Positions 40,889 through 61,902 of a DNA stretch of 64,000 nt are shown piece by piece; position 1 is the stretch's first letter; each line of letters starts with the position of its first letter. The DNA is from Ecytonucleospora hepatopenaei (lineage: Eukaryota > Microsporidia > Enterocytozoonidae), in assembly GCA_026692725.1 (NCBI GenBank), contig JAPMUG010000008.1, positions 1-64,000 of the forward strand, written 5' to 3'. The notes under the pieces were generated by a model that worked only from the letters and a program-made list of their open reading frames with translations, had not been told where the DNA came from and searched no databases. A program made the translations under genes and the position numbers.

Positions 40889-40901
40889 ACTATTTAATAT
40901 A

Positions 40902-43135: not shown

Positions 43136-44473
43136 ATGATATTAGATCTATTTATATGTGATAATACTAACAATATATTATATGGTAATAATATAAAATA
43201 CAATAATATATTAAATAATATTAATTTATCAAATAATAATATATTAAACAATATAAACTATAATATATTATATAATATAAACTATAATATATTATATAAT
43301 ACTTATACTTCATATGGTATTATATCATATTTGTATGTTAATGATATTATAATATGTATATTACATAATGATGATAGTTTTACAGCCAGTAAGCTATTAT
43401 TATATATTAAGAAGTATATTGCATCATGTGGATTGCATATGAATAAAGAGAGTATAATACATAATTATTTTATGTATGTAACTAATTTATATAATATAAA
43501 TTATAATATATATAAATATATATATAAACATAACATACATAACATACATAACATACATAACATACATAATATACATACTGATAACATATATATAGATGTA
43601 ATAGAACAGTATAATATAGTAATATATAACAATAGGGTAATAAAGAATACAGTACATGGAGAGGTGATATATAAAGATAATAGGGAAATAACAGTGGATA
43701 TAAAGATACCAAGTGATATAAATATAATAAATACAAAGCATAATATAAAATATAAGGATTATAGCAATAATGATAATAACAGTAATATAAATAACAGTAA
43801 TATAAATAACAGTAACTTATATAATCATAAATATATACAGTTATATTATAAAAATGGTAATAATACATTATTATCATATTATAAGAATATGTTAGTTAGT
43901 GATAATAATATTACACCTATAATATATGTTAATAAAAATGATAATATATATAAAATAACAATAAACAATACATATAATACATATAACAGTAATATAAACA
44001 ATACATTATATAGTACTAATACATATATTGGTAATGGTATTAAGTTTAATAAGCTTAAAATATCTATTCCTATTCCATATAATTCATATGATGCTATTAT
44101 GCAGTGTAAGAATGGAGAATTAAGGTTAAATAGAGAAAAGAATATGGTGGAGTGGAGAATAACCAATTATATATTAAAAGAAGAGACATTATATATAGAA
44201 CCATTATTGATATTACCAATAGATAATATAAATAGTAATACTTTATATAGTAATACTTTATATAATAATACTTTATATAATAAAAATAGTAATAATATAA
44301 ATAACAGTAATATAAGTAGTAATATAAGTAGTAATATTATGGTTAATTATCAAATTGAAAACTATAATAAAACATTACTAAGGATAGAAAAGAGTGAAGC
44401 AATATTTAACCAGATAGCTAAGGTATGGGTGAAATATTATACACAGGCAAGTAATTATGAAATAAGGGAATAA
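43136..44473 (+). CDS. Clathrin adaptor complex medium (mu) subunit
   Basis: The 445-residue product has an N-terminal longin-like domain (about 1-130, with YGIISYLYVNDIIICIL and the following helix) and a C-terminal mu-homology domain (about 150-445). Characteristic stretches are IDVIEQYNIVIYN, KFNKLKISIPIPYN (family FKIPIP), NGELRLNREKNMVEWRI (family W.I..F) and the closing WVKYYTQASNYEIR, which matches the mu-adaptin ending WVRYIT..G.YE.R. The protein selects membrane cargo at the trans-Golgi or endosome. Asn/Ile/Tyr-rich inserts of microsatellite origin break both domains. AP-1, AP-2 and AP-3 cannot be separated. Confidence 0.85.
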   Translation: MILDLFICDNTNNILYGNNIKYNNILNNINLSNNNILNNINYNILYNINYNILYNTYTSYGIISYLYVNDIIICILHNDDSFTASKLLLYIKKYIASCGLHMNKESIIHNYFMYVTNLYNINYNIYKYIYKHNIHNIHNIHNIHNIHTDNIYIDVIEQYNIVIYNNRVIKNTVHGEVIYKDNREITVDIKIPSDINIINTKHNIKYKDYSNNDNNSNINNSNINNSNLYNHKYIQLYYKNGNNTLLSYYKNMLVSDNNITPIIYVNKNDNIYKITINNTYNTYNSNINNTLYSTNTYIGNGIKFNKLKISIPIPYNSYDAIMQCKNGELRLNREKNMVEWRITNYILKEETLYIEPLLILPIDNINSNTLYSNTLYNNTLYNKNSNNINNSNISSNISSNIMVNYQIENYNKTLLRIEKSEAIFNQIAKVWVKYYTQASNYEIRE

Positions 44474-44646: not shown

Positions 44647-45042
44647 ATGTACAGTATTTCACTAACTAACAGTACTACTAATAATACAAATGATAATAGT
44701 AGTACAAATGATAATAGTTGTACAAATGATAGTAGTAATAATACAAATGATAATAATAGTATAATAGATTATAATATACAGTTAGATACATATTTATATA
44801 ATACACATACATTTTATAATGATATGGATATATATGAAATATATTTATATTATAATATTAACAATACATATAATTGTAATATAAATAATATAGATTATAA
44901 TATAAAATATAATAATATATTTAATATTAATTATTTATCTATTAATGATTATAATATTATAGAATATGATAATAATGTATATTGTTCATGTATGTATAAT
45001 ATATGTATACATAAATATATTTATATAAAACATTTAAAATAA
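44647..45042 (+). CDS. Hypothetical Asn/Tyr-rich small protein
   Basis: The 131-residue product has an N-terminal Asn/Thr/Ser/Asp repeat region (TNDNSSTNDNSCTND) and a Tyr/Asn/Ile-rich body ending with VYCSCMYNICIHKYIYIKH. A cysteine cluster (CSC...C) near the end is the only notable feature. Codon use is extremely AT-biased. It may be a small conserved protein swollen by microsatellites, or a spurious frame. Confidence 0.35.
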   Translation: MYSISLTNSTTNNTNDNSSTNDNSCTNDSSNNTNDNNSIIDYNIQLDTYLYNTHTFYNDMDIYEIYLYYNINNTYNCNINNIDYNIKYNNIFNINYLSINDYNIIEYDNNVYCSCMYNICIHKYIYIKHLK

Positions 45043-45247: not shown

Positions 45248-45307
45248 TTTTTTGATCACTTTTTTCAATCATTTTTAAATAGTTGATTTTTTATACCTAT
45301 TATTATA
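45248..45307 (+). promoter_or_regulatory. Conserved proximal block of secreted family 1, copy 1
   Basis: The block TTTTTTGATCA...AATCATTTTTAAATAGTTG...TTTTTTATACCTATT ends at the ATG of the 45308 gene. The same 55-60 bp recur before six other members. A distal block (ATGACATATATAAAA...AAAATGATAT) lies at about 45145-45180. Confidence 0.75.
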
Positions 45308-46444
45308 ATGTTATTCAGTATATTTTATAAATTATATTTTTTTATAATATTTAATATATTATCAATTAAAGCTAATAATATTATTGAAATAGAAAATGAT
45401 ACACCTGTTACTCTATTAAATGATAATTCTCTGTTTATTATAAACTGTACTATAGAAGAACAAAAAAATGTAACAAATAAAGGAAAATACTATTTTTATA
45501 CAACAGTAAAAAATAAAAACAGAATTTTTAAAGTTGAGAGTTCAATTGGATTACAAAGAGATACTATTATAGTTTATAATGATAAACATTATAAAATATA
45601 CAACAATAGTACTGGTAAAAGCAGTGAAGATAAAGGTACTTATTTATTTTTGAATTCTTCATATCCACTATCACAATATGAATTACAATATAAATTACAA
45701 TATAAATTACATAATGCTTTTGATAGTTCATGTTATAAAAGTTTTTTGCATTTAAATTTAGACCAAATCAAAAATGAAGATAGTTTAGATGAGCCTTTAA
45801 AATCACCCTTTAAATTCAGAACAAACGAAAAATATAATAATTCTCAAATTTTTATTTTAAACAAAGAAAAATTTAAAAAATTTTTACAAAATAAAAACTA
45901 TTCTTTTGGTGAAAAATATATAACTTATACACATGCTTTTTTTACGAAAAAAGATGCAAAAATAGTATTGAATAATTGTAAATTAGAAGAAATTAGTGAT
46001 GACAATAAAAATGCAGAACACGATCGTATTGATGGAAGTACTATAGAAGGAAGTCTAAATAAATCAAACACATCACATGATAATGATAAAAACGATAATA
46101 ATTTATATAATTCAGATACTGAATACAATTCATATAACTCAGATAGTGAATACAATTCATATAACTCAGATAGTGAATACAATTCATATAACTCAGATAG
46201 TGAATACAATTCATATAATTCAGATAGTGAATACAATTCATATAACTCAGATAGTAAGAAAAGTGAAGAAAAATCAGATAGTGATTATTATTTAAATAAT
46301 TTATTTGAGGAAGATTTTAAAGATAAGGTTAAAAAGGAAGATAGTGAGGAAAAATCAACAAGTGAATATTATTTAAATAATTTATTTGAGGAAGATTTTA
46401 AAGATAATGATGAAAAGGAAGATAATAAAGATAAAGATGATTAA
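45308..46444 (+). CDS. Secreted family 1, member 1
   Basis: The 378-residue product has a signal peptide (MLFSIFYKLYFFIIFNILSIKA). A conserved N-domain follows (NDTPVTLLND...FIINCTIEEQ, YYFYTTVKN, IFKVESSIGLQRDTIIVYNDKHYKIY), then a conserved C-domain at about 183-236 (FILNKEKFKKFLQNKNYSFG, AKIVLNNCKLEEIS). The tail is hypervariable: five to six copies of a 27-bp repeat encoding NSYNSDSEY (46107-46254), then a duplicated YYLNNLFEEDFKD unit. The C-terminus is KDKDD. The function is unknown; the leader and acidic tail suggest a secreted protein that could contact the host or the spore coat. Confidence 0.8.
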   Translation: MLFSIFYKLYFFIIFNILSIKANNIIEIENDTPVTLLNDNSLFIINCTIEEQKNVTNKGKYYFYTTVKNKNRIFKVESSIGLQRDTIIVYNDKHYKIYNNSTGKSSEDKGTYLFLNSSYPLSQYELQYKLQYKLHNAFDSSCYKSFLHLNLDQIKNEDSLDEPLKSPFKFRTNEKYNNSQIFILNKEKFKKFLQNKNYSFGEKYITYTHAFFTKKDAKIVLNNCKLEEISDDNKNAEHDRIDGSTIEGSLNKSNTSHDNDKNDNNLYNSDTEYNSYNSDSEYNSYNSDSEYNSYNSDSEYNSYNSDSEYNSYNSDSKKSEEKSDSDYYLNNLFEEDFKDKVKKEDSEEKSTSEYYLNNLFEEDFKDNDEKEDNKDKDD

Positions 46445-46501
46445 CTGATATTATATTATTCTTTTATATTTTATAGTTTATTAAAGTATTATTTTTTTAT
46501 T

Positions 46502-46528
46502 AGGGAATTATTATATAAAAATATTCCT
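46502..46528. terminator. Conserved 3' hairpin, family 1 (after member 1)
   Basis: AGGGAAT and ATTCCT arms flank an AT-rich loop about 58 bp after the stop. Equivalent hairpins follow members 3, 4 and 7. A role in 3'-end formation is inferred only from position and conservation. Confidence 0.45.
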
Positions 46529-46776
46529 TATTTTTATATAATACTTAAATGAATTAAATATTTTATTATTTATTATTTGTTTTTAATCATTTTTATGTTT
46601 TAAATGACGCTTATATCAAAAATGATATTTTTTGTAAATATAATATATTATTATTTTAAATATTTCATTAAAAACGTATACTATTTTTTTATGAAATAAA
46701 TAAATTAAAAAACCAATAATTTGATTGTTTTTTAAATCAAATATAAACAATTTATTTGTGTATACCCTATATTATA

Positions 46777-47693
46777 ATGTTATTTAATATATTATATATT
46801 TTATATATTTATATTAAATTACATATAAATATTATATATTTAAATATATTAAATTACATATAAATATTATATATTTAAATATATTATATTTTAATATAAA
46901 TAATGTTAAATGTGCTAATCAAATTCATTTAAATAATAATGTAATTGTTACCCTACTAAATAATGATAATAATTTTACAATAAAATATAACATAGTAGAG
47001 ATAGATCCATTAAATGAAATAATTAATACAAATATCAATAATTGGTATTATTTTTATATTACAGATTATAATCATAATAGATTATTTACAGTTAACAGGT
47101 CATTTATATTAGGTGAAAATAGTATTGTATTATATAATAATAAAAAATATAAAATATACAATACAAATGATAATATAAATGATATTCTGGTTGTTCCATT
47201 ATCATCATATAGGATAATAAATAATTCTGATAATATAAAATCAAATAATACAAAATACAATGATTTGTGTTGCATAGGTTCAAATAGTTATATTTTATTT
47301 GATAACTTAAGAATACATAATTTACTATTTTTACCAAAGTATCCTACTGAAATTAAATATTCTACTGAAGTTGAAATGTGTAATTTATATAACAAACCAA
47401 CAAATTACTATGATAACTTTGATATCATTAAGAAGTTCATTATGGGGAATATATTTAATAAAACAAATAAAAAAATTTCAAAATATTACAGAAGACTACT
47501 TATTGGGCATTCTAAGTGTTTTAGATTATTTGTTATAAACACAGAAAAGTTTAAAGAGTTTATATCAGATAAAAATTATTCTATTGGAAAATGTTATGAA
47601 AGCAGTACACAAGCAGAATTTTTAGAAGAAAATCCACAAATATTGTTAACTGATTGTACATTAGTAGAAATTGGAAATAGCAGTAAAATGTAA
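46777..47693 (+). pseudogene. Secreted family 1, member 2, frameshifted by a 35-bp duplication
   Basis: The ATG at 46777 and a hydrophobic leader are followed by a perfect 35-bp tandem duplication (46816-46850 and 46851-46885). Because 35 is not a multiple of three, the frame from the ATG meets a TAA in the second copy. Downstream the original frame is open to 47693 and encodes a complete family body: CANQIHLNNNVIVTLLNN, FTIKYNIVEID, YYFYITDYNHNRLFTV, CCIGSN, FVINTEKFKEFISDKNYSIG, CLVEIG-type ending. No other lesion is visible, so inactivation is recent or an assembly artefact. Its upstream blocks are also diverged. Confidence 0.75.
46816..46885. repeat. 35-bp perfect tandem duplication in the leader of member 2
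   Basis: Two identical adjacent 35-bp units, beginning AAATTACATATAAATATTAT. A single unit would keep the reading frame open from the ATG to the end of the gene. Confidence 0.9.
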
Positions 47694-48037
47694 ATAATAA
47701 GATTAACTAATTAAATAATTAAATAATAATTATCTAATAATAAATCAGATACATATACATATAATAAACATTTATTTATTAAGAAACATATTATTAGATG
47801 ATTAAAATAATATATTTATATTTTATTATATATTTATATATTTATATATTTATAATTTATTATATAATTTATTATATAATTTATTATATATTTTATTATA
47901 TATTGATAAACAAAATAATTTTATAATGATTTATATGACATACCTTAAATATATAAAATGATATATATTATTTTATTATATTATAATTTGTTTTTATTAA
48001 GTTTAAAACATAAATTAAGAAATAAAATAAATGAAAA

Positions 48038-48098
48038 TTTTTTGATCACTTTTTATTAATCATTTTTAAATAGTTGATTTTTTATACCTATTATTATA
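48038..48098 (+). promoter_or_regulatory. Conserved proximal block of secreted family 1, copy 3
   Basis: The block is nearly identical to that before member 1 (TTTTTTGATCACTTTTTATT, AATCATTTTTAAATAGTTG, TTTATACCTATTATTATA) and abuts the ATG. The distal block lies near 47932-47970 (TATGACATACC...AAAATGATATATA). Confidence 0.75.
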
Positions 48099-49019
48099 AT
48101 GTTATTCAATATATTTTATAATTTTATAATATTTAATATATTATCAATTAAAGCTAATAATATTATTGAAATAGAAAATGATACAACTGTTACTCTGTTA
48201 AATAAAAACTCTGTTTTTTCTATAAAATACACTATAAAAGAACAAAAAGAAATAACAAATGAAGGAAAATATTATTTTTATGTAAAAGAAAATGATAAAA
48301 AAAGAATTTTTAAAGTTGAGAGAAAATTCGGACTGGAAAAAAATACTACTGTAGTTTATAAGGGTAAATGTTATAAAATATGCGATAATAATACTTTTAT
48401 AAGTAATAAAAATAATATTGAATATATATTTTTACCTTTTTCATATCCAAAATCAGATTATGAATTATGTATTGACTTAGGTATTTCGTGTTACAAAAGT
48501 TTTTTGGATTTAAATTTATCAGACAACAAAAAAGAAGATTGTTTAGAACAGCCTATAGAACCACCTTTTAAATACAATACATGCAAAGTTAATAAACAAT
48601 CCAAAAAGGTTGATAAAAACATACTAATTACAGATATAAAACTAAATGAACGCAAACCTTCTAAGAAAGTAGGCAGAAACTTTAATCATTCTCAAGTTTT
48701 TGTTTTAAACAAAGAAAATTTTAAGAAATTTATAAAAGATAAAAGCTATTCTTTTGGTAAACAATATTTACCAACTATACATGCTGTATTTTTAGGCAAA
48801 GATGCAAAAATAGTATTGAATAATTGCAAATTAGAAGAAATTAGCAATATTAATACAGATCATACACGTTTTGATTTCAATAATTTAAAAGAAAAGCCAT
48901 CACTTAATAATGATAAAAAGGAAGATAATTTAGATAATGAATTTGATTTAGATAGTTTATTTTATGAAGATAATTTAAATAATGATAAAAACGAGGATGA
49001 TTTAAATAAAGATGATTAA
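48099..49019 (+). CDS. Secreted family 1, member 3
   Basis: The 306-residue product has signal peptide MLFNIFYNFIIFNILSIKA. The N-domain (NDTTVTLLNKNSVFSIKYTI, YYFYVKEN, IFKVERKFGLEKNTTVVYKG) is close to member 1. The C-domain (FVLNKENFKKFIKDKSYSFG, AVFLGKDAKIVLNNCKLEEIS) is almost the same as in member 1 over 50 residues. The tail is shorter and acidic, ending LNKDD. Two cysteines in the middle (CYKSFLDLNL) are shared with member 1. Coding and flanking similarity make members 1 and 3 the closest pair. Confidence 0.8.
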   Translation: MLFNIFYNFIIFNILSIKANNIIEIENDTTVTLLNKNSVFSIKYTIKEQKEITNEGKYYFYVKENDKKRIFKVERKFGLEKNTTVVYKGKCYKICDNNTFISNKNNIEYIFLPFSYPKSDYELCIDLGISCYKSFLDLNLSDNKKEDCLEQPIEPPFKYNTCKVNKQSKKVDKNILITDIKLNERKPSKKVGRNFNHSQVFVLNKENFKKFIKDKSYSFGKQYLPTIHAVFLGKDAKIVLNNCKLEEISNINTDHTRFDFNNLKEKPSLNNDKKEDNLDNEFDLDSLFYEDNLNNDKNEDDLNKDD

Positions 49020-49115
49020 CTATTATTATAATATTCTTTATATGGTACTAACAGAAAAGAAAAGAATAAAAAGTAATTTATAGTTTATAATATATTAAAG
49101 TATTATTTTTTTATT

Positions 49116-49142
49116 AGGGAATTATTGTTTAAAAATATTCCT
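49116..49142. terminator. Conserved 3' hairpin, family 1 (after member 3)
   Basis: AGGGAAT and ATTCCT arms are spaced as after member 1. The surrounding 80 bp are also conserved between the two spacers. Confidence 0.45.
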
Positions 49143-49338
49143 TATATTTTTTTATAATACTTAAATAAATTAAATATTTTATAATTTATTATTTGTTTTT
49201 AATCATTTTTATGTTTTAAATGACATTTATAATAAAAATGATATTTTTTATAAATAAATGATATTTATTATTTTAAATATTTCATTAAAAACGTATACTA
49301 TTTAATAATGAAAATTAAATAAATAAAAATTATAAAAA

Positions 49339-49393
49339 TTTTTTGATCAATTTTTAAAATCATTTTCAATAGTTGATTTTTTATACCTATATT
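49339..49393 (+). promoter_or_regulatory. Conserved proximal block of secreted family 1, copy 4
   Basis: A TTTTTTGATCAATTTTTAAA, TCATTTTCAATAGTTG, TTTTTTATACCTATATT block ends at the ATG at 49394. It fixes the start there, not at the in-frame TTG at 49373, which lies inside the block. Confidence 0.75.
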
Positions 49394-50386
49394 ATGTTAT
49401 TTAATTTTTTTAACAATTTATTTTATTTAATAATATTTATACTATTTACATTTAGTATTGAAGTTATTTATATTAAAAATGACACACCTGCCGTTTTTAA
49501 TAATAACAATAACAATTTTTTTATTAAATATACAATAAAGGAAATTGATAAAGCTGGTATTAAAAACATAATAAATAATACTGAATCTACAGATGATGAT
49601 GAATACTACTTTTGTATAAATCACAATGGTAAAATAAGAAAATTTAAAATAAAAAGAACATTTGGATTAGAAAAAGATGGTATTGTGCATTGTAATAATA
49701 AAAAATTTACTTTATTTTTATATTTCAATAGCAAATATGATTATATTAAATTTAAATTTGATTCTTCTTATGAAAATAATTCTGGCTATAATTTTGTTTT
49801 TAATAAAAATACAACATACTGTATATGTGTAAAGAATTTAGAATATTTAGACCGTGTAAACATAACATCCTTGCTACATATTGTACAATACAATGCAAAC
49901 TTAGGAAATAAACAAAAAGTTGTAAAATATTTTAAGGATAATTTTTATTCAAACAGCAATACACAGCTTAAATATCTATTTTTAAAAGGAAAGCAATATA
50001 CCTATAAAAATGTTAAAGTAGAAAAAAACAAAGAAGATAAATTATGGCATAATATTTTAAGAAATTCTAATAGACACTGTTTATTTGCTATAAATAGAGG
50101 AGAATTTAGAAATTTTTTAAATAATCCAGATTATTTTGTTGGTAAAAAGTATAAATGCAGTACAAAAGCATATTTTTTAGGCCAAAAAGTCGATATAATA
50201 CTAAGTGAGTGTTATTTAAGAGAAGTTGATAATAAAAAAATTATAAAAAATAAAAGTAAAGTATATCATTCTAAAGAAAAAATTATAAAGAAAACAAATT
50301 CATCACTTGATAATGCTAAAACTGAAGATAATTCAGATAATAATGAGAATGAGAGTAATTTAGATAAAAATAAAAAAAGTAGATAA
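49394..50386 (+). CDS. Secreted family 1, member 4
   Basis: The 330-residue product has leader MLFNFFNNLFYLIIFILFTFS. The N-domain (NDTPAVFNNNNNNFFIKYTI, YYFCINHNGKIRKFKIKRTFG) is followed by a middle-plus-C region of about 150 residues that is almost identical in members 6 and 7: ITSLLHIVQYNANL, LKYLFLKGKQYTYKNVKVEK, LWHNILRNSNRHCLFAINRG, EFRNFLNNPDYFVGKKYKCS. The tail is short, Lys/Ser/Asn-rich, and ends KNKKSR, unlike the acidic tails of other members. Confidence 0.8.
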   Translation: MLFNFFNNLFYLIIFILFTFSIEVIYIKNDTPAVFNNNNNNFFIKYTIKEIDKAGIKNIINNTESTDDDEYYFCINHNGKIRKFKIKRTFGLEKDGIVHCNNKKFTLFLYFNSKYDYIKFKFDSSYENNSGYNFVFNKNTTYCICVKNLEYLDRVNITSLLHIVQYNANLGNKQKVVKYFKDNFYSNSNTQLKYLFLKGKQYTYKNVKVEKNKEDKLWHNILRNSNRHCLFAINRGEFRNFLNNPDYFVGKKYKCSTKAYFLGQKVDIILSECYLREVDNKKIIKNKSKVYHSKEKIIKKTNSSLDNAKTEDNSDNNENESNLDKNKKSR

Positions 50387-50410
50387 TTATTTGATATTAT
50401 ATTTTTTATT

Positions 50411-50437
50411 ATGAAATTATCGTATAGAAACATTCAT
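50411..50437. terminator. Conserved 3' hairpin, family 1 (after member 4)
   Basis: ATGAAAT and ATTCAT arms occupy the same position as the AGGGAAT/ATTCCT hairpins; one stem pair differs on both sides (G-C to T-A), keeping the pairing. Confidence 0.4.
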
Positions 50438-50664
50438 TATATTTTTAGTATACCTAAATAAATTAATTTTTTTAAAAAATTATACTTATATTTTAAAATA
50501 ACTATTTAATAAATTATATTTATTAGTTTTATTTGTTTAAAATCATTTTTTATGATTTACATGACATGTATAAAATTATAAAAATGATATATATTTTATT
50601 TTTTAATTTATAAAGTTGTTTTTTATATTTTAACATATAAACATAAAATAAAATTTTTATAATA

Positions 50665-50724
50665 TTTTTGATCATTTTTTATTAATAATTTTTAAATAGT
50701 TGATTTTTTATACCTATTATTATA
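50665..50724 (+). promoter_or_regulatory. Conserved proximal block of secreted family 1, copy 5
   Basis: ATTTTTGATCATTTTTTATT, AATAATTTTTAAATAGTTG and TTTTTTATACCTATTATTAT abut the ATG. The distal block is at about 50552-50595 (ACATGACATGTATAAAA...AAAATGATATATA). Confidence 0.75.
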
Positions 50725-51645
50725 ATGTTATTCAATATATTTTATAATTTATATAATATAATAATATTACATATATTATCAATAAAAGCTAAAAATACTA
50801 TAAAAATAAAAAATGATACAACTGTTACTCTATCAGATAATAATGATAATTTTATTATTAAATACGAAATAAAGGAAATAGAAAAAGATCAATATAAATA
50901 TAATGATGATTACTACTTTTTTTATATATTGAAAAATAACAAAAAAAGAATTTTTAGAGTTGAAAGAACTTTTCTTTTACATAAAAATAGTATTATATTT
51001 TATAACAATAAAAAATACAAGGTATATATTGATAGCAAAAATATAAAACATGAAAATAACATACCATTTTATCCATGCGCATCTGTACAATTACAATATA
51101 GAATAATACATGTTTTAAATAATTTTTATTGTGTTGGTTCTAAAAGAATGGATTTTTTTGAAGAATTTAAAATTTCTAACTTAATTCATTTATCAGAATG
51201 TCCTGGTACCATTACTTCTTATTCTTATTTTTTACATATTTTTAAGTATGACAGGTTTGATATAACTAAGAAAGTTTATGAAGAAGACATTTTTTTAAAC
51301 CAAAAGAAACTTTTTACAGAAAATATAAAAATAGATTCTACAAGTCATCGTTTCGATTTAAAAACATTTGTTATAGATAGAAAAGAATTTAAAAAGTTTT
51401 TATTAGATTCAAAATATTTTATGGGTAAATGTTATGAAAGCATAACATATGCAGAATTTATAGATACAAAGCCATATATAACAATAAGCAAATGTAAATT
51501 AATAGAAGTTATTAATGATTTTGATACAAAAAATGAAAGTAGCAGTTTAACTAGTTTAAGAGAAAAAAATACTAACAAAATAAATCTACCAAATATAATA
51601 GAAGAAAAAGAGACTGATTCTAATAATCAAACACTAAATGATTAA
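50725..51645 (+). CDS. Secreted family 1, member 5
   Basis: The 306-residue product has leader MLFNIFYNLYNIIILHILSIKA. The N-domain (NDTTVTLSDNNDNFIIKYEI, YYFFYILKN, IFRVERTFLLHKNSIIFYNN) is typical. The middle differs from members 4, 6 and 7 and is nearer to member 2 (CVGSKRMDFFEEFKISNLIH; CIGSN... in member 2). The C-domain is FVIDRKEFKKFLLDSKYFMG and AEFIDTKPYITISKCKLIEV. The tail is short and polar, ending in ND. Confidence 0.8.
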   Translation: MLFNIFYNLYNIIILHILSIKAKNTIKIKNDTTVTLSDNNDNFIIKYEIKEIEKDQYKYNDDYYFFYILKNNKKRIFRVERTFLLHKNSIIFYNNKKYKVYIDSKNIKHENNIPFYPCASVQLQYRIIHVLNNFYCVGSKRMDFFEEFKISNLIHLSECPGTITSYSYFLHIFKYDRFDITKKVYEEDIFLNQKKLFTENIKIDSTSHRFDLKTFVIDRKEFKKFLLDSKYFMGKCYESITYAEFIDTKPYITISKCKLIEVINDFDTKNESSSLTSLREKNTNKINLPNIIEEKETDSNNQTLND

Positions 51646-51717
51646 ATTTATAATTTAATTTAAAACTTACAATAATTTAAATTTTAAAACTTACAATACT
51701 TTATGATTTAAAACTTA

Positions 51718-51798
51718 CAATACTTAATAATCGATTAAATAAAAACAATACTTAATAATCGATTAAATAAAAACAATACTTAATAATCGATTAAATAA
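51718..51798. repeat. 28-bp tandem repeat
   Basis: There are three units (51718-51745, 51746-51773, 51774-51798 partial) with core AATACTTAATAATCGATTAA. The rest of the 493-bp spacer after member 5 is AT-rich and holds the distal block of member 6 near 51960-52005. Confidence 0.85.
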
Positions 51799-52078
51799 CA
51801 ATTATATTTATAAAATAAGCATAATGTTTTGTAAAAAAATAAATAATAGCATAATAATATATTACCTTTTTTATTTATGTTATATATATATTTTTTAATT
51901 TTAACAGGGATAAATATATAAGTAAAATATACAATATATTTAACATCAAAATTTTTTATAATGATTTACATGACATGTATAAAATTATAAAAACTGATAT
52001 ATATTTTGTTTTCTATTTTTAGTATATTTTAATTTAAAATTTATTATTAAAAACAATAATATTTAAAAATAAAATAAA

Positions 52079-52138
52079 ATTTTTGATCAATTTTCAAAAT
52101 CATTTTTAAATAGTTGATTTTTTATACCTATAGTAACA
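52079..52138 (+). promoter_or_regulatory. Conserved proximal block of secreted family 1, copy 6
   Basis: TTTTTTGATCAATTTTCAAA, TCATTTTTAAATAGTTG and TTTTTTATACCTATAGTAAC directly precede the ATG. Confidence 0.75.
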
Positions 52139-53293
52139 ATGTTACTTAATATATTTTATAATTTAGTATTTTTTAATATATTAACAATAAATACTGATGA
52201 TATTTATTTGGACAATGATACACCTGTTACACTCATAAACAAAAATGGTTTTTTTCTTTGTCAATACACCATTAAAGAAATAGCAAATAATAACATATAT
52301 ACTGATATTACAGACATTTCTAATAATAATACATATAATAATACATATAATAATACATATGAAACTAAATACTATTTTTATTTAAATCATAATGGTAAAA
52401 TTAGAAAATTTATAGTAACAATAATGTATATGTTACATAAAAATAGTATTGTATATTATAATAATAAATATTATAAAGTATATAAAAATAAAACTATTTA
52501 TAACAATAATATTAAAAATATACATAATTATGATAATAAACACAATATAAATGATGATAATAAACACAATATAAATGATTATAATAAACATAATTTAAAT
52601 GATAATGATAATAAACATAATTTAAATAATGATGATAATAAGTATAAATGTTTTCATTTTAAATTTTATTCAAAAGATAGCTCTTATTTATATAGGTTAT
52701 TGAATTTAAAACATAATACATTTTGCATATGTTTTAAAAAACAAGAATATTTAAAAAGTGCAAACATAACATCTTTGCTACATATTGTACAATACAATAC
52801 AAATTTAAGAAAGAAACATAAAGTTGTAAAATATTTTTTTGATAATTTTAGTTTAAACAGTAACATACAGCTTAAATATCTATTTTTAAAGGGAAAGCAA
52901 TATAATTATAAAAATGTTAAAGTAGAAAAAAATAAAGAAGATAATTTATGGTATAATATTTTAAGATATTCTGGCACACACTGTTTATTTTCTATAGACA
53001 GAGAAGAATTTAGAAACTTTTTAAATAAGCCAGATTATTTTGTTGGTAAATGCTTTTATAGTGATGCTCTTGCACAGTTTTTGATGAAAGAACAAATCAT
53101 AATTTTAAATAATTGTACATTGGAAGAAGTTACTGAAAAAATCAGAACAAAGAATATTAAAATCAATAAACACTATTCTTTAAAAAAAGGAATTAGTAGA
53201 AAGCCAAACTTTACGACTATTTTTGAAGAAAATAAAAATAAAACAGATTTTTGTGATGATGATGGTGATTCAGGTTTTTCAGATAATGATTAA
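52139..53293 (+). CDS. Secreted family 1, member 6
   Basis: The 384-residue product has leader MLLNIFYNLVFFNILTINT. The N-domain carries an Asn/Thr/Tyr insert with a NNTY repeat, and a second insert of HN(I/L)ND-type repeats at about 120-160. The middle and C-domain (ITSLLHIVQYNTNLRKKHKV, LKYLFLKGKQYNYKNVKVEK, HCLFSIDREEFRNFLNKPDY) are nearly identical to members 4 and 7. The tail is short and ends GDSGFSDND. The leader and first residues (NTDDIYLDNDTPVTL) match member 7. Confidence 0.8.
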   Translation: MLLNIFYNLVFFNILTINTDDIYLDNDTPVTLINKNGFFLCQYTIKEIANNNIYTDITDISNNNTYNNTYNNTYETKYYFYLNHNGKIRKFIVTIMYMLHKNSIVYYNNKYYKVYKNKTIYNNNIKNIHNYDNKHNINDDNKHNINDYNKHNLNDNDNKHNLNNDDNKYKCFHFKFYSKDSSYLYRLLNLKHNTFCICFKKQEYLKSANITSLLHIVQYNTNLRKKHKVVKYFFDNFSLNSNIQLKYLFLKGKQYNYKNVKVEKNKEDNLWYNILRYSGTHCLFSIDREEFRNFLNKPDYFVGKCFYSDALAQFLMKEQIIILNNCTLEEVTEKIRTKNIKINKHYSLKKGISRKPNFTTIFEENKNKTDFCDDDGDSGFSDND

Positions 53294-53908
53294 ATGATTT
53301 TTTAAAATTCTTTATTTAATGTATAAAAAAGATTTTTTAAAATAACTGAAATTTTATTTTTAAAATATCATTAAATTTATATTTTATTTAGGTTTTTATA
53401 TTTTAGCAAAGATATATAATTTTACATTTACTTATATTTTAAATTAATCTATGTTACTCATGTAAACTAAAACATTCTAAGTATTTGTTTAATTCTTATT
53501 TTAACTATTTAATTAAGTATATGTATAGGATGCAAATTTAATCTTAATAAACTTATTTGTTTTTAAACGTTTATAAATTAAATCTAGATAATTTATATAT
53601 AAAATTAATTTTTTATATATACAATTCTAATTTAAATTAGGTTTTTTATATAAAAAATAAAACACAAGTTATTTTTTAAAATTATTATAAATAACTTTTT
53701 TTTAAATATTTTAAAGCTCATGACATGTGTTTAAATTTATTTATTTTTTACATCTAAAGAAAATTTGATATATATATTTATTTTTTGACATGTATAAAAA
53801 CTGATATATATTTTGTTTTCTATTTATACTGTTATTTTATTAAAATTTATTATTTAAAACAATAAAAATATTTTATAAAACAATAAAAAAAATTAAATAA
53901 AAAATAAA
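53294..53908. other. Spacer between members 6 and 7
   Basis: About 615 bp of AT-rich sequence without a gene. A distal block (TTGACATGTATAAAAACTGA) lies near 53786-53815. This spacer lacks the 3' hairpin seen after members 1, 3, 4 and 7. Confidence 0.6.
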
Positions 53909-53965
53909 ATTTTTGATCAATTTTCAAAATCATTTTTCAATAGTTGATTTTTTATACCTATAATT
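53909..53965 (+). promoter_or_regulatory. Conserved proximal block of secreted family 1, copy 7
   Basis: ATTTTTGATCAATTTTCAAA, TCATTTTTCAATAGTTG and TTTTTTATACCTATAATT abut the ATG at 53966. Confidence 0.75.
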
Positions 53966-55849
53966 ATGTTATTTTACAATTTTTATAATTTATTGTTTTT
54001 TAATATATTAACAATAAATACTGATGATATTTATTTAGAAAATGATACATCTGTTACTCTATTAAATAATAATAATGAATTTTTTATTGAATATACCATA
54101 GTAGAAATTGATAAAAGTGATTTTTCTAACATAACAAATAATATTGTAAATACAGATGATGAATACTATTTTTGTATAAATCACGATGGTAACATTAGAA
54201 ATTTTAAGGTTAAAAGAACATTTGGAATACATGAAAATAGTATAATGAATTATAAGGATAAAAAATACAATTTATTTTTAAATTCTAGTGACTTTGAGTA
54301 TTTTAAATTTAAATTTGATTCTTCTTATAAAAAGAATAATCAATACAATTTTGTTTTCAATAAAAATAAAACATACTGTATATGCGTAAAGAAACTAGAA
54401 TATTTAAAAAATAAAAATATAACATCCTTGTTGCACATTGTACAATATAATGCAAATTTAAGAAAGAAACATAAAGTTGTAAAATATTTTAAGGATAATT
54501 TTAGTTTAAACAGCAATACACAGCTTAAATATCTATTTTTAAAAGGAAAGCAATATACCTATAAAAATGTTAAAGTGGAAAAAAACAAAGAAGATAATTT
54601 ATGGCATAATATTTTAAGAAATTCTAATAAACACTGTTTATTTGCTATAAATAGAGGAGAATTTAGAAACTTTTTAAATAATCCAGATTATTTTGTTGGT
54701 AAAAAGTATAAATGTAGCACAAAAGCATGTTTTTTAAATGATAAAATAAAGATAGTGTTAAGTGAGTGTTATTTAAGAGAAGTTAATGATGATAAAAAGA
54801 TTATAAAAAGAAAAAGTAAGGCATATCATTCTAAAGAAAAAATTAAAAAGAAAACAAATTCATCACCTGATATTAAGGATAATGAAAATAATTTAAACAA
54901 ATTAGATATTAATAAAGATATTGAATATAATAAAAATATTGAATATAATCAGAATAATAAAAATAAAAATAAGGAAAGTAAATTAGATAATTTAGATAGT
55001 AAAATCAACAAGCATAATGAAAATAATTCAGACATTGATTTTCATTTAGATGAATTTTTTAATGAAAAATATATTGAAAATAATAATAGTTTAAATAATA
55101 ATCAAAATGAGATTAATCAAGATAATTCAAATAATTTAATAAATGATAACAATGGAAATGATAATAATGATAATGGAAATAATGATAATGATAGCAATGA
55201 AGATAATTTTGAAAATGGTGAAAATTTAGAAAAATCAGAAAATATAAACAAATCTGATGATCTTGTTAATGAAATAAAATCAGTTAATAAAGATAATGCA
55301 AATAATGATAATTTAGAAAATGAGAATACTGAAAATAAATCAGACTATAAATATAATAAAGATAAAGATGAAAATGATAATATTGATGAAAATAATTTAG
55401 TTTATTTAAATAATGAAGATAATGAAAATAAATCAGATGTTTTAAATGATAAAGATAATAAAGACAATAAGAATAATTTTTATAAATTAGATGTTATATA
55501 TAATCGTTTAAAATTGTATAAATCAATTATTTTAGATACTTTATATAATTTAGATAATTTAGATAATTTAGATAATTTAGATACTTTAGATAATGAAGAT
55601 ATTACAGATAATGATAAAAAGAAAAATAAATCATATAATTTAAATAGTGAGAAACTTAAAGATAAATCAGAAAATGATAAAAGTGAAGAGAATAAAGAAA
55701 ATTTAGATAATAAGGATAAACTAAACAATGAAGGCAGTAAAAAGAGCAATGAAAATGAAAATAATGATAATAAGAAAGAAAATTCAAATACTGAAACTAA
55801 TGATGATAATGTTAAAAAGGAAGATAAATCAGACAAAAAAGATGATTAA
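53966..55849 (+). CDS. Secreted family 1, member 7 (longest, with a large acidic tail)
   Basis: The 627-residue product has leader MLFYNFYNLLFFNILTINT. The N-domain, the middle and the C-domain (about residues 20-290) are the conserved family body, with HCLFAINRGEFRNFLNNPDY and KKYKCSTKACFL nearly identical to member 4. The remaining 330 residues are a low-complexity tail of Asn, Asp, Glu and Lys, with LDN repeats (DNLDNLDNLDNLDTLDN), ending KSDKKDD. The tail has no predicted fold and varies completely between members while the body is conserved, a pattern typical of surface or effector families. Confidence 0.8.
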   Translation: MLFYNFYNLLFFNILTINTDDIYLENDTSVTLLNNNNEFFIEYTIVEIDKSDFSNITNNIVNTDDEYYFCINHDGNIRNFKVKRTFGIHENSIMNYKDKKYNLFLNSSDFEYFKFKFDSSYKKNNQYNFVFNKNKTYCICVKKLEYLKNKNITSLLHIVQYNANLRKKHKVVKYFKDNFSLNSNTQLKYLFLKGKQYTYKNVKVEKNKEDNLWHNILRNSNKHCLFAINRGEFRNFLNNPDYFVGKKYKCSTKACFLNDKIKIVLSECYLREVNDDKKIIKRKSKAYHSKEKIKKKTNSSPDIKDNENNLNKLDINKDIEYNKNIEYNQNNKNKNKESKLDNLDSKINKHNENNSDIDFHLDEFFNEKYIENNNSLNNNQNEINQDNSNNLINDNNGNDNNDNGNNDNDSNEDNFENGENLEKSENINKSDDLVNEIKSVNKDNANNDNLENENTENKSDYKYNKDKDENDNIDENNLVYLNNEDNENKSDVLNDKDNKDNKNNFYKLDVIYNRLKLYKSIILDTLYNLDNLDNLDNLDTLDNEDITDNDKKKNKSYNLNSEKLKDKSENDKSEENKENLDNKDKLNNEGSKKSNENENNDNKKENSNTETNDDNVKKEDKSDKKDD

Positions 55850-55920
55850 CTGATATTATAATATTCTTTTAATGGTAAAACTATAAAAAAAAGAATTTTA
55901 AAGTAATTTTTAATTTATAT

Positions 55921-56155
55921 TTTATATTTTATAATCTATATTTTATAATTTATATTTTATTAAGGTATTATATTTTATATTTTATATTTTATTAAGGTAT
56001 TATATTTTATATTTTATATTTTATATTTTATATTTTATATTTTATATTTTATATTTTATAATTTATAATTTATAATTTATAATTTATAATTTATAATTTA
56101 TAATTTATAATTTATAATTTATAATTTATAATTTATAATTTATATTTTATTAAGG
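55921..56155. repeat. Heptanucleotide tracts (ATTTTAT)n and (TATAATT)n
   Basis: Two adjacent period-7 tracts are embedded in the spacer after member 7. The first is the complement of the AAAATAT heptamer that forms the 400-bp array at 40.5-40.9 kb. Confidence 0.85.
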
Positions 56156-56172
56156 TATTATATTTTTTTATT

Positions 56173-56199
56173 AGGAATATATTGTATAAAAATATTCCT
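56173..56199. terminator. Conserved 3' hairpin, family 1 (after member 7)
   Basis: AGGAATAT and ATATTCCT form a perfect 8-bp stem with an 11-nt AT loop. It is the most regular of the four copies, but lies about 320 bp after the stop because the heptamer tracts intervene. Confidence 0.45.
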
Positions 56200-56477
56200 T
56201 ATATTTTTTAGTATACCCAAATAAATTAAATATTTAAACAAATTAAATATTAAATAAATTATGTTTATACTTATATTCTAAATTAGCTATTTAATAATGT
56301 AATTTTATTATACATTTTAAATTTATTGATTTATTGTCACTTTTATTTGTTTTTAATCATTTTTTTGTTTTAAATGACATTTATATAAAAATGATATTTT
56401 TGTTTATAACACTTTTGTATCACTATAAAGAGATTTATTAATTAAAAGAATATAAATTAAGAACAGAACAAATAAAA

Positions 56478-56539
56478 TTTTTTTGATCACTTTTTATTAA
56501 TCATTTTTAAATAGTTGATTTTTTATACCTATTGTTAAA
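56478..56539 (+). promoter_or_regulatory. Conserved proximal block of secreted family 1, copy 8
   Basis: TTTTTTTGATCACTTTTTAT, AATCATTTTTAAATAGTTG and TTTTTTATACCTATTGTTAA precede the ATG; the distal block lies near 56383-56410 (AAATGACATTTATATAAAAA). Confidence 0.75.
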
Positions 56540-58267
56540 ATGATATTCAATATAATTTATAACTTATATAATTTACTAATGTTTAATATCTTATCAATTA
56601 GTGAAAATACAATAATTAATTTGGAAAGAGATACTCCTGTTACACTATTCAATAATAATGATAAATTTATTATTGAATATGAAATAAAAGAAATATTTAT
56701 TAAAAAAACTACTAATAAATCTACTAATATAAAAACTACTTATAAAAATAATAATATAAATACTAAAACTACTAATAATAATATAAAAACTAAAACTACT
56801 AATAATAATATTTACTACTTTTGTATAAATTATAATGGTGTTATTAGATATTTTAAAATGGAAAAAAAATTTAAGTTTCAAAAAAATTCTATTGTTCTAT
56901 ATAAAGGTAAAAAATATGTAACTAATCATAAGAATGATGTAAACAATCAAAAAATTTTTAAATTTAACTTACCAACACCAACTTTATATTATAATTTAGT
57001 TGAAGAACCAAACAAAACATATTGCATATGTGTTAAAAATTTAAATTTATTAAAAAATTCAGGCATTCCAAGTTTATTGCAATTAGTAACATGTAATCCA
57101 TCCAAAGGAAAAAAGCTACTTTATGATTGCATTACTTCAGAAAGTTTTAAAAAAAGCAGCAACATGTCTTTTAAATACATAAACATTAAAGAAAACAGTT
57201 TTTTATATAATATTGTTAAAATACAAAGAAAAAAAGAAGATAAATTATGGGAAAATATTTTACAACATTCTAATAAACACTGTCTTTTTGCAGTTAACAA
57301 AAAAGAATTTAAAGAATTTTTAGATGGAAAAAACAAAACAGAAAATTTATTTATAAGCAGTACACTAGCACAATTTTTTGGAAATAAGACAGAAATATTA
57401 TTAAGTAATTGTGATTTAAAGGAAGTGATGGATGATATTACTTTTATTGCTGATAAAAATAATAATAAACAGTCTACAAATGTAAAAGAAAATATTATTC
57501 TTAAAAATATAAATGAACAACATATAAAAGACAAAGAAGAAAATATTACTAAAAAAAGTACAAGACAATCTAAAACAGATAAAACTAATTTAAGTCAACA
57601 TATTATAAAAAATAAAAACATAAATAAACAACCTAATAAAAAAGATGATATGTTTATCAAACAGACTATCATAAAAAATAAAAACAAAAATGTTGCTAAA
57701 AAACATAAAACAACAGATAAAAACAAAAATGATCTAAGCCAACCTGTTATAACAAAACAATATTTAAATAACTCTGGACATCCCATGCAAAAAGTAGATG
57801 ATGAATTTAATCAATCTATAACAGATAAAGAAATTTATAAATCAAATCTTCTAAATTTAGATTGTAATAATATAACGAAACTTGAAATATTAAATAATTT
57901 TAAAACAAAATATGAGAAGTATTATTATAAAAAAATATATTCACATCCAAATTTAGTAAAAGAAGAACAAGAAAAACCAAGATATAAATTTTACATACTG
58001 GTTTGCAAAATAAACCAGATCATAAATAACTTAGAAGACAATCCCAGAAATACTTTAAATACCGAAAAAGATAACTATAATAAAGAAAAAGATAACTATA
58101 ATAAAGAAAAAGATACTATTAAAATATTAAACAATATTGAAAGTAAAGCTAATAAAAATGATTCAAGGAAAATTTCAAACAGGATATATAATGATCTAAA
58201 TGAAAAAGAAGATTACTCTTTTATAAAATATTTAGATAGTGAAGAAAATAAAGAAGCAGATGATTAA
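56540..58267 (+). CDS. Secreted family 1, member 8 (most diverged)
   Basis: The 575-residue product has leader MIFNIIYNLYNLLMFNILSIS. The N-domain has an insert of NTKTT repeats (about 60-90). The body (YYFCINYNGVIRYFKMEKKF, CICVKNLNLLKN, LWENILQHSNKHCLFAVNKK, EFKEFLDGKN) is recognisable but clearly diverged from members 4, 6 and 7. The tail is long and basic, with DKNK and KNKN stretches, and includes an extra folded-looking segment at about 460-500 (KYEKYYYKKIYSHPNLVK ... FYILVCKINQIINNLE) not seen in other members. It ends NKEADD. Confidence 0.8.
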   Translation: MIFNIIYNLYNLLMFNILSISENTIINLERDTPVTLFNNNDKFIIEYEIKEIFIKKTTNKSTNIKTTYKNNNINTKTTNNNIKTKTTNNNIYYFCINYNGVIRYFKMEKKFKFQKNSIVLYKGKKYVTNHKNDVNNQKIFKFNLPTPTLYYNLVEEPNKTYCICVKNLNLLKNSGIPSLLQLVTCNPSKGKKLLYDCITSESFKKSSNMSFKYINIKENSFLYNIVKIQRKKEDKLWENILQHSNKHCLFAVNKKEFKEFLDGKNKTENLFISSTLAQFFGNKTEILLSNCDLKEVMDDITFIADKNNNKQSTNVKENIILKNINEQHIKDKEENITKKSTRQSKTDKTNLSQHIIKNKNINKQPNKKDDMFIKQTIIKNKNKNVAKKHKTTDKNKNDLSQPVITKQYLNNSGHPMQKVDDEFNQSITDKEIYKSNLLNLDCNNITKLEILNNFKTKYEKYYYKKIYSHPNLVKEEQEKPRYKFYILVCKINQIINNLEDNPRNTLNTEKDNYNKEKDNYNKEKDTIKILNNIESKANKNDSRKISNRIYNDLNEKEDYSFIKYLDSEENKEADD

Positions 58268-58438: not shown

Positions 58439-59011
58439 TTATATTATCCTTCCTATTATACTCTTATCTTTTATATTCTTCTTTACCATATCTTTTATTA
58501 TGTCATTTTCCAATATATTAGGATATTTCCTTTTAATGTAAAACATAAATTTATGTGTTGCTTCACTATCTGTTTGTAACATACAAATCATATAGTTGGT
58601 ATATGTGTTAGTTAGTATATTTATATCCATATATGGTTCTATTTTAGTCAATACTCTAAATATGTTTTTTATATTTACAATACTGTTTTTTATGTTTATA
58701 ATATTAGTTATATTAAATACATATAAATCCAATACTTTATCTAATATTATATTAGCATATTCTTTATAAAAAATATCATCACATCTTAATAATTTTCTAA
58801 TTAATATTTTATACATAGAAGAATGGTTAAATAAAGAAATTATTTCATCATATGTAGATTTATATTTAGTACTATTAGAAATAGTATTATTGATACAATT
58901 ATTAGAATTATTATTATTTTTAAAACAATTATTAGAAATATTATTGTTAATATAATTTTTAGTACATTTAATGCTTTTTATTTTGGGTGGTATAAAATTG
59001 GAATTATCCAT
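58439..59011 (-). CDS. Hypothetical helical protein
   Basis: The 190-residue product has an Asn-rich stretch at about 20-50, then an all-helical sequence (STYDEIISLFNHSSMYKILI, LLRCDDIFYKEYANIILDKV, FRVLTKIEPYMDINILTN, SEATHKFMFYIKRKYPNILE). It could be an ARM/HEAT- or VHS-like scaffold. It has no signal peptide and no membrane segment. It lies between the secreted family 1 array and IMP3 on the opposite strand. The Asn insert again matches a microsatellite. No family is assigned. Confidence 0.6.
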   Translation of the reverse strand: MDNSNFIPPKIKSIKCTKNYINNNISNNCFKNNNNSNNCINNTISNSTKYKSTYDEIISLFNHSSMYKILIRKLLRCDDIFYKEYANIILDKVLDLYVFNITNIINIKNSIVNIKNIFRVLTKIEPYMDINILTNTYTNYMICMLQTDSEATHKFMFYIKRKYPNILENDIIKDMVKKNIKDKSIIGRII

Positions 59012-59366: not shown

Positions 59367-59981
59367 ATGAGACAACTTAAACATCATGAAAAAAAGTTAT
59401 TAAAGAAAGTTAACTTGGATGAATGGAATTCTAAAAGAGAACAGTTAGTATGCACCAAATATTTATTACATGATAGAAATACATATGTAAAATATAACAT
59501 AATAGTGGGTAAGATAAGAAAGTTAACAGAAAGTTTAGCTAGATTAAATTATACAACAACAAATATCAGCAATATAAGGAATACTACAAATGATAAAAAC
59601 AATAAAAACAGTAGCACCAATAATACTGCAAATAATATTGTTATTAAGGAATATATTGGTAAGAAATTAATTAATAAATTATATGACATGGGAATAATTG
59701 AAGAAAAGAAACTCAGTGAGTGTTTAAAAATTACAGTCAGTGACTTTTGTAAGAGGAGATTGCCTATTGTCATAGCACACAAGAAAATGGTAGAAAATTA
59801 CAAAGATGCTGATAAATTTGTACAACATGGACATATTAAGGTGGGAACAGAGGTAGTTAGTGATCCAAGCATTTTGATTAGTAAAAGTGCAGAGGAATAT
59901 ATCAAGTGGAAGGAAGGGTCAAAAATAAAGAGGAAATTGGATGAAATACACGGGGATGTAGATGATTTTGAATATTTATAA
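59367..59981 (+). CDS. IMP3: U3 snoRNP protein Imp3
   Basis: The 204-residue product acts in processing of pre-18S rRNA in the nucleolus, stabilising U3 snoRNA pairing. The start MRQLKHHEKKLLKKVNLDEW matches the Imp3 N-terminus (KLKHHEQKLLKKVDFLEW). The S4 RNA-binding domain (about 125-175) reads FCKRRLPIVIAHKKMVENY, DADKFVQHGHIKVG and VVSDPSILISKSAEEYIKW, ending KIKRKLDEIHGDVDDFEYL. An insert of about 25 residues (66-91, Asn/Thr/Lys) separates the two halves at a loop and comes from AAT/ACA repeats. Confidence 0.95.
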   Translation: MRQLKHHEKKLLKKVNLDEWNSKREQLVCTKYLLHDRNTYVKYNIIVGKIRKLTESLARLNYTTTNISNIRNTTNDKNNKNSSTNNTANNIVIKEYIGKKLINKLYDMGIIEEKKLSECLKITVSDFCKRRLPIVIAHKKMVENYKDADKFVQHGHIKVGTEVVSDPSILISKSAEEYIKWKEGSKIKRKLDEIHGDVDDFEYL

Positions 59982-60127: not shown

Positions 60128-60766
60128 ATGTTTATTTATTTAAGTCATAATTTCATTTTTATATTTTATTTATTTAATCTATTAACAAATATTAAATGTG
60201 CATTTGGAAATAATTTATCAAATAATTGTGAGTTTTATAAGGAAATACCATATAGTCATGAAACTAATGTAAATGACAATTTATATTCAAATTCAAATGA
60301 TTGTTTAAACAAAAATTATAATTATAATTTGCCAGGAAGTTCTGCTCAGAACCATGATGGTCAAAATGTGGTAGAACTTTCTAATGAGCTATTTCAAAAT
60401 CAAAAGATCAATGATAACGAAACATTTATTAAATATGTAAATTGTATTCATAAAAAAATAGCAACTTTTTCAAATAGTTTAGATCAAGTAAATGATATGA
60501 GGCATAAGGATAACACATTTTTTACATTTAAAGAATCTGATAAAAGAGAAGAATCTAAAGATTTTATAATTGAATTTAATTATTTAAAAGAATGTTTTGA
60601 AAATTTAAAGAGGCAACCATGGTACGGCAATCTCAGCTATAATGGTAATGTAAGAATTGAAATGTTAAATAGGGACTTAGACAAAATAAAGTCTAAATTA
60701 AAAACTAAAAATAAAAAAACAAATAAAAGCAAGATAAAAAATGAAACATATAAATTTTATGACTAG
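60128..60766 (+). CDS. Secreted family 2, member 1
   Basis: The 212-residue product has a signal peptide (MFIYLSHNFIFIFYLFNLLTNIKCAFG), an Asn/Ser/Tyr-rich variable region (about 28-95), then a helical domain (NDNETFIKYVNCIHKKIATF, FNYLKECFENLKRQPW, EMLNRDLDKIKSKLKTKNKK) and a basic tail. The helical domain aligns loosely with member 2 (NDKETFLNQLDSIEYQVAEF). No enzyme motif is seen. Secretion and small size fit an effector or spore-coat role, which is inference. Confidence 0.7.
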   Translation: MFIYLSHNFIFIFYLFNLLTNIKCAFGNNLSNNCEFYKEIPYSHETNVNDNLYSNSNDCLNKNYNYNLPGSSAQNHDGQNVVELSNELFQNQKINDNETFIKYVNCIHKKIATFSNSLDQVNDMRHKDNTFFTFKESDKREESKDFIIEFNYLKECFENLKRQPWYGNLSYNGNVRIEMLNRDLDKIKSKLKTKNKKTNKSKIKNETYKFYD

Positions 60767-61021
60767 TTTATTAATTAAATACATAATTATATAATATTTA
60801 TTTTCATTTTATTTTGGTGATATTTTAAAATATAAAAACTATTATCTGTTTATTTTGTGATTATATTTTATTGTGTTTTTTATATATAAATTGTTTTTTA
60901 AAGCATTAGTGTATTAATAAATTATTTAATAAAATACAATTTATTTATAGATTAATTTATATATAAAATATATTACTTAAGATCTATTATTAACTTTTTG
61001 ATATTTTAAATCACAAAATAT

Positions 61022-61046
61022 TTAACCTTAATTTATTTTATTACCC
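61022..61046 (+). promoter_or_regulatory. AACCTTAA...TTACCC initiator, secreted family 2, copy 2
   Basis: This is identical to the block before 60128, with the same upstream TATTAACTTTTTGATATT element and an ATAATTTATATATAAAATAT-type stretch further up. Confidence 0.75.
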
Positions 61047-61589
61047 ATGTTATTTACAAAAAATATGATGTTTAATTTATTTAAAATATCATTTATAATA
61101 TGTGCACATGGTTATAATCCATCTACTTCTAACAATCCTAATGATAATAGTTATTCCTCACCTGTTTATGTGCCTGTTTTTGGCAATAACTATGATAATG
61201 ATTTTATAAACAATACTGTTCAAAATCAAGGGCATCAAGGTACTTTAAAACTAATAAAATTACCTTTTAATCTTGAATATATAAATGACAAAGAAACATT
61301 TCTTAATCAATTGGATTCTATCGAATATCAAGTTGCTGAATTTTTAAAAAATATAAAACTTATAGCTAAGAATTGTAAATCAAGTAACTTTATGATTGGA
61401 GTTCAAGAATCCAATGAAATAATAACATTAAATGATTATTTAGAACAGTTTAAAAACCTGCAACAAGTCTTTGAAATACAATTTTATAATAATGATTTAT
61501 TAAAAATTAATTTGATAAAAACTAATTTAAAAAAAATAGTGACCTTTCTAACAAAAGAAATATCAAAGAAAAAAAAACTAAATAAATAA
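61047..61589 (+). CDS. Secreted family 2, member 2
   Basis: The 180-residue product has leader MLFTKNMMFNLFKISFIICAHG, a Ser/Asn/Pro-rich stretch with a PVYVPVFGNN motif, and a helical domain from about residue 75 (NDKETFLNQLDSIEYQVAEF, LKNIKLIAKNC, LNDYLEQFKNLQQVFEIQF) with a basic end. A second ATG eight codons in (61068) would give a shorter leader. It shares its initiator and helical plan with member 1, but identity is low. Confidence 0.7.
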   Translation: MLFTKNMMFNLFKISFIICAHGYNPSTSNNPNDNSYSSPVYVPVFGNNYDNDFINNTVQNQGHQGTLKLIKLPFNLEYINDKETFLNQLDSIEYQVAEFLKNIKLIAKNCKSSNFMIGVQESNEIITLNDYLEQFKNLQQVFEIQFYNNDLLKINLIKTNLKKIVTFLTKEISKKKKLNK

Positions 61590-61902
61590 AAAATTTACCA
61601 TTCTTGCTTTTTAAATATATTATTTTTTTAAAATTATTGTTTTATATTTAAATTATTATAATTATAAATAATTTTTCTGATCTTTTTATTAAATAAATAA
61701 AAATACGTTATAAAATTATTTTTAACCATAACTTATATATGTATATATTCTAATTTTATTTTACTATATTACCAAACAAATCATAATAAAAATTGTATAA
61801 AAAATAAATGTTTTTTTCTTAATAAATGTTGTTTTCATAATAAATGCTGTTTTCATAATAAATGTTGTATTAGTGGTAAATAAATAAAATTAAAAATTAT
61901 TT
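61590..61902. other. Spacer with short repeats
   Basis: No gene is present. An ATAAATGTTGTTTTCATA motif is repeated about four times at 61805-61870. Confidence 0.6.

Follow-up and report, generated by a model that had tools for sequence, protein, structure and literature searches.

A tandem array of eight leader-bearing paralogs with likely modular relatives in the genome of the shrimp microsporidian Ecytonucleospora hepatopenaei

Ecytonucleospora hepatopenaei (EHP) is a shrimp microsporidian that slows the growth of farmed shrimp. The window, that is, the whole stretch of DNA analysed here, corresponds to the first 64 kb (64,000 nucleotides) of contig C12 (170,298 bases) of the EHP assembly (3.09 Mb, 13 contigs). 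A preliminary description of the window, made from its letters, had placed eight tandem paralogs on the plus strand at 45308-58267, and all eight units are found there (Table 1). The microsporidian origin of the DNA is supported by three products encoded outside the window that are identical to named EHP proteins. One product is 100% identical over 327 aa to EHP00_982, and the frames at C7:129438 and C12:109537 equal EHP00_682 and EHP00_1530, respectively, letter for letter. Four full-length matches to the SSU rRNA model RF02542 in the genome agree with this origin, but the support is unspecific, since the same model matches 9 of 14 control genomes.

The flanking genes with Pfam matches nearest to the array encode an adaptor-complex medium subunit (43136-44473) and an S4-type ribosomal protein (59367-59981); two frames with no Pfam match, 44647-45042 and 58439-59011, lie between them and the array. 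The distance between the array and the left contig end is 45 kb. Elsewhere in the assembly, positions 1-600 of contigs C11 and C13 carry mixed 4- and 5-base TTAG/TTTAG repeats with the look of an irregular telomere, and the repeat orientation flips after ~540 bases at the start of C13. This telomere-like repeat is absent from the window. It has 318 forward and 424 reverse matches in the genome, and among the matches listed some lie ~15-19 kb inside C1.

Table 1 Positions of the array genes, their upstream elements, and the related families. Positions refer to the window unless a contig is named.
Feature	Position	Strand	Details
Gene 1	45308..46444	+	378 aa; leader, N and C modules; 145-aa S/N/D/E tail with YNSDSEYNS repeats
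Gene 2	46777..47693	+	leader ATG at 46777; body frame 46818-47693, another frame; tail 2 aa
Gene 3	48099..49019	+	306 aa; 54-aa tail; nearest member gene 1 (61%)
Gene 4	49394..50386	+	330 aa; 48-aa tail; body 71% identical to gene 7; body modelled
Gene 5	50725..51645	+	306 aa; 40-aa tail
Gene 6	52139..53293	+	384 aa; 49-aa tail; relative to gene 7, middle 90%, N 48%, C 54%
Gene 7	53966..55849	+	627 aa; 350-aa N/K/D/E-rich tail
Gene 8	56540..58267	+	575 aa; 275-aa tail
22-bp element, gene 1	45278..45299	+	genome pattern search
22-bp element, gene 3	48069..48090	+	genome pattern search
22-bp element, gene 4	49368..49389	+	genome pattern search
22-bp element, gene 5	50695..50716	+	genome pattern search
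22-bp element, gene 6	52109..52130	+	genome pattern search
22-bp element, gene 7	53939..53960	+	genome pattern search
22-bp element, gene 8	56510..56531	+	genome pattern search
Family T (six genes), single entries	C7:129438; C11:12410; C12:79137		
Family T, two-unit genes	C7:131023-133302; C11:14006-16154; C12:109537-111327		units of the C11 gene in two frames
Family U (eleven genes)	C6, C7, C8, C9, C10, C13		all apparently membrane-anchored by eye

The array proteins start with a hydrophobic leader, continue with N and C modules on either side of a variable middle, and end in a low-complexity tail. The leader, the N and C motifs, and the tail had been noted in the preliminary description and are all present. 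The tails, counted from a body end that is set by motif, span 2 to 350 residues, in keeping with the earlier estimate of a few to over 300. The count of eight genes holds for the units, whereas only seven frames are intact (306-627 aa, at 82-85% A+T): the leader and the body of gene 2 lie in different frames, and the frame break adjoins a short direct repeat. In all seven intact genes, the best 11-residue mean hydropathy of the leader is between 1.5 and 3.0. The leader of gene 8 is the weakest, and a later 11-residue stretch of the same protein is at least as hydrophobic. No second membrane-like stretch is found, as later 19-residue segments never exceed a hydropathy of 0.97.

An HMM built from the eight bodies scores its own members at 261-380 bits and the best other sequence at 20.9 bits (583 six-frame fragments from 25 sources). 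Single-protein searches of the 3.09 Mb assembly with genes 3 and 4 (E<=10) return no copies outside the array; match counts of such searches are lower bounds.

The preliminary description overstated the conservation of the bodies: pairwise identity is just 30-71% over aligned positions (28 pairs). In 25 of these, identity is lower in the middle than in either the N or the C part. The exceptions are the three pairs among genes 4, 6, and 7, in which the middle is 80, 86, and 90% identical. The N and C parts are 43-57% identical in pairs 4-6 and 6-7, and 56% (N) and 84% (C) identical in pair 4-7. In pair 6-7, third positions are identical at 54 of 66 sites in the middle versus 136 of 207 elsewhere (Fisher p 0.014; 0.0085 when the leader is omitted). 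The simplest reading of these mosaic bodies is that segments have probably been exchanged within the array. Alternatively, duplication followed by uneven change is possible.

An exact 22-bp element is positioned upstream of the ATG in seven of the eight genes. It is embedded in a conserved block of ~50 bp that starts with TTTTTGATCA in all seven. Gene 2 carries no such element within 3 mismatches; just a TATACCCTATATTATA stretch is kept there, beside the ATG. When the whole genome is searched with up to 3 mismatches, 7 sites are returned, all with 0 mismatches and all within the array, which rules out a genome-wide promoter; the reversed pattern, used as a control, gives one match. By eye, the element is also missing from the 80-base upstream regions of 24 other genes, namely all six of family T (one measured from the frame start, not the ATG), nine of the eleven of family U, and four and five from two neighbouring arrays. 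The element contains, by eye, AAATTT-like and CCC-like stretches; AAATTT and CCC signals of microsporidia are described in the accessible part of PMC2803860.

Two dispersed families in the same genome resemble the array. We name them T (which includes EHP00_682 and EHP00_1530) and U (which includes EHP00_982). The first gene of each was chosen by eye for likeness, in the case of T a C12 frame with a similar N hairpin and C motif, and the matches of these genes were then followed. Family T has N and C modules like those of the array, and their order is also that of the array. It differs from the array in having one or two units per protein, in lacking the 22-bp element, and in having an apparent anchor: in four of the six genes, by eye, a low-complexity stalk leads to an apparent transmembrane segment near the C terminus, after which a short basic tail follows. 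Family U shares with the array a leader, the N-module hairpin, and a low-complexity stalk, and its proteins have an apparent C-terminal membrane segment. Two further U copies, at C1:140537 and C5:11279, are broken by several internal stops; they have equal search scores and lie ~11 kb from contig ends. By eye, the relatives seem enriched toward contig ends, an impression on which we base no claim.

The alignment of the array and T profiles by hhalign has a probability of 94.7 with eight T rows and 92.2 with six. Its score is 62.2 over 230 columns, covering the N and C modules, compared with maxima of 16.2 for 100 column shuffles, 26.8 for 100 composition-keeping block shuffles, and 12.6 for reversed profiles. 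Two unrelated secreted arrays on the same contig give 14.3 and 11.1. Taken by part, each against 20 block shuffles, the N module scores 35.6 (shuffle maximum 22.2), the C module on its own exceeds its controls by very little (27.2 versus 25.1), and no match is seen for the middle (10.2 versus 14.3). Profile comparison thus makes a relationship between the array and family T likely. The match between U and the array is confined to the N module; hhalign gives 68.6 with nine U members and 65.5 with eleven, and the score with nine members is 42.1, against at most 18.4 and 29.2 for the two kinds of shuffle. The probability between U and T falls from 77.8 to 12.3 after two members are added. We consider a relationship between the array and family U possible.

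The array profile was also compared by hhalign with individual open frames from part of the genome, 115 in all and each 200 aa or longer; 18 of them belong to T or U. The ten highest ranks are divided equally between T and U, with five frames each, and the next rank (23.2) goes to an unrelated frame. The top twelve include six of the seven T frames, and the remaining one is 35th. Searches of a profile against single sequences join the families partially. The array HMM reaches one of seven T fragments (E 8.3e-6), the T HMM finds none of the eight array frames, and the U HMM finds one of eight (gene 5, E 3.4e-5) as well as another frame of the window that is assigned to no family (E 1.3e-4). Single-protein genome searches do not join the array with T or U. 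Composition is a real confounder in these searches, because with the correction off in HMMER, unrelated Asn-rich frames score like true candidates and come first or near the top. HMM searches were therefore dropped as proof of family links, which rest on hhalign with composition-keeping controls.

Database searches place the array in no known family. The eight array frames (gene 2 represented by its last 105 residues) have no meaningful Pfam match at E<=1; two matches are attributable to chance. In accordance with the preliminary description, which recognised no DUF1609, InterB, or ricin-B-lectin type, no Pfam match to these is found, InterB being covered only if Pfam models it. The Pfam matches of family U are weak and below the cut-off. 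A profile search of the sequences of solved structures yields one chance match (E 0.2), and the predicted model of the gene 4 body matches no fold in PDB or BFVD. The model of a family U protein (pLDDT 45) is too poor to use, and its PDB search is meaningless. In the protein database, the array profile at E<=1 returns just the products of genes 4 and 5 of the window; of the other members, two are over the length limit of the search, one is frame-broken, and genes 1, 3, and 6 are not returned. The T profile returns two EHP proteins. The U profile returns EHP00_982 together with one record, its source labelled lgn, that is 99% identical to a U protein. These T and U searches scored the ~8,000 candidates sharing most words. 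No homolog outside EHP is found among 5.8 billion proteins by the word-based search; since it depends on shared 5-residue words, distant relatives in other Enterocytozoonidae may exist.

We find no published description of the array family in the open-access literature. In the accessible part of PMC5423893, a large microsporidian gene family is one with at least ten homologous members per species, and 59 of 68 such families are genus- or species-restricted. The array has 8 members, the array with T has 14, and inclusion of the less certain U brings the number to 25; all matches are window proteins, EHP proteins, or the one lgn record. NemLGF1 and other host-exposed families of that paper have a signal peptide or a C-terminal transmembrane segment, are lineage-restricted and often adjacent, and are mostly of unknown function. 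In Nematocida, host exposure is linked to leader-bearing, lineage-restricted families. We liken the array to these families by description; the name 'hepatopenaei' is absent from the main text of the paper. The best reading is that the array represents a new microsporidian family of this known type, specific to its lineage and exposed to the host.

More specifically, we interpret the array as the soluble, secreted members of an EHP-specific family of modular ectodomains, with a probability of roughly 60%. The module would have a strand-rich N part and a small alpha/beta C part with the variable middle between them, and a related module would occur once or twice per protein elsewhere in the genome. 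The array proteins would retain the leader and a stalk-like tail without a membrane segment. Local duplication and segment exchange would have produced the array, and the private 22-bp element probably controls the joint expression of the seven genes that carry it. The leader would direct export from the parasite, and the module may bind a partner where parasite and host meet; in the anchored relatives, a similar module would be held at the surface of the parasite. The surface or effector role proposed in the preliminary description is plausible in view of the module that the array appears to have in common with the anchored relatives. A wider version of this proposal is possible but doubtful: the array, T, and U would be branches of one EHP-specific superfamily of ~25 genes with an unrecorded fold, making up much of the host-facing surface, and the array would be its soluble branch, reshuffled by segment exchange and with a promoter element of its own that drives the genes jointly.

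The leaders and the long, charged, low-complexity tails would also fit coat or spore-wall structural proteins that are secreted and form a matrix through their tails without a host partner, and the anchored relatives could then be attachment points. The spore wall proteins of EHP, including EhSWP1, come from the same organism and have a proposed host-facing role (PMC5848443, accessible part). However, the EhSWP1 clade is described there as having a BAR2 domain and no predicted signal peptide, whereas the array has leaders and no BAR match in the Pfam scan, unlike SWP12/EhSWP1. The host exposure of leader-bearing, lineage-restricted families in Nematocida also argues against a structural coat, which we regard as improbable.

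Somewhat less probable still is that the array expanded recently, is largely redundant, and is heading for decay under relaxed selection. Nei-Gojobori ratios, which segment exchange would disturb, were calculated for five pairs, and three of these were compared with 100 neutral simulations each at local base composition. Whole-body dN/dS is 0.62 for genes 4 and 7 (neutral 5-95% range, 0.95-1.70), 0.63 for genes 6 and 7 (0.97-1.83), and 1.27 for genes 1 and 3 (0.80-1.62). No domain exceeds the neutral 95% value in any of the three. Two pairs are thus under purifying selection and the third is indistinguishable from neutral; the diversifying pressure suggested in the preliminary description finds no support in these pairs. 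The neutral-range ratio of genes 1 and 3, the broken frame of gene 2, and the patternless variation of tail length would fit decay; the purifying selection in two pairs, the survival of seven of eight frames at such a high A+T content, and the identity of the upstream element in seven genes argue against it. Finally, the array proteins might be kept in the secretory pathway of the parasite without export, as four of the seven intact genes end in -DD, but the remaining three end differently and -DD is not known to be a retention signal; retention is very improbable.

If our interpretation of the array as soluble ectodomain proteins is correct, an apparently anchored-and-soluble modular family provides concrete candidates for what the parasite displays to its host, for which the accessible literature on EHP offers spore-wall and polar-tube proteins. 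It also makes two modules available for structural study. Should the relationship hold, it would show a route from a membrane-anchored family to a secreted one. Among such families, it is less common to find a soluble array together with a dispersed, apparently anchored family that has a similar module, and with an upstream element private to the array.

Other runs of secreted-looking genes lie nearby. Six small leader-bearing genes occupy the plus strand from 60128-63334 of the window on to C12:65592-66583. The first two of them match at E 5e-8 and the third weakly (0.04), with no match for the rest in that comparison; a TTAACCTTAATTTATTTTATTACCC-ATG block is common to three of the four upstream regions compared. 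This run does not match the eight-gene array by hhalign. On the minus strand, C12:66673-72132 contains five secreted-looking genes of 293-324 aa that are ~23-29% identical where they match, and the one member scanned has no Pfam match. In the left part of the window, positions 11400-25600 are ORF-poor and contain remnants of ISXO2/IS1595-type DDE transposases at 14387-14746 (plus strand) and 22163-22978 (minus strand). Positions 40482-40889 consist of 58 copies of ATATAAA (98% match) and lie opposite to a reading frame made of YILYFIF repeats.
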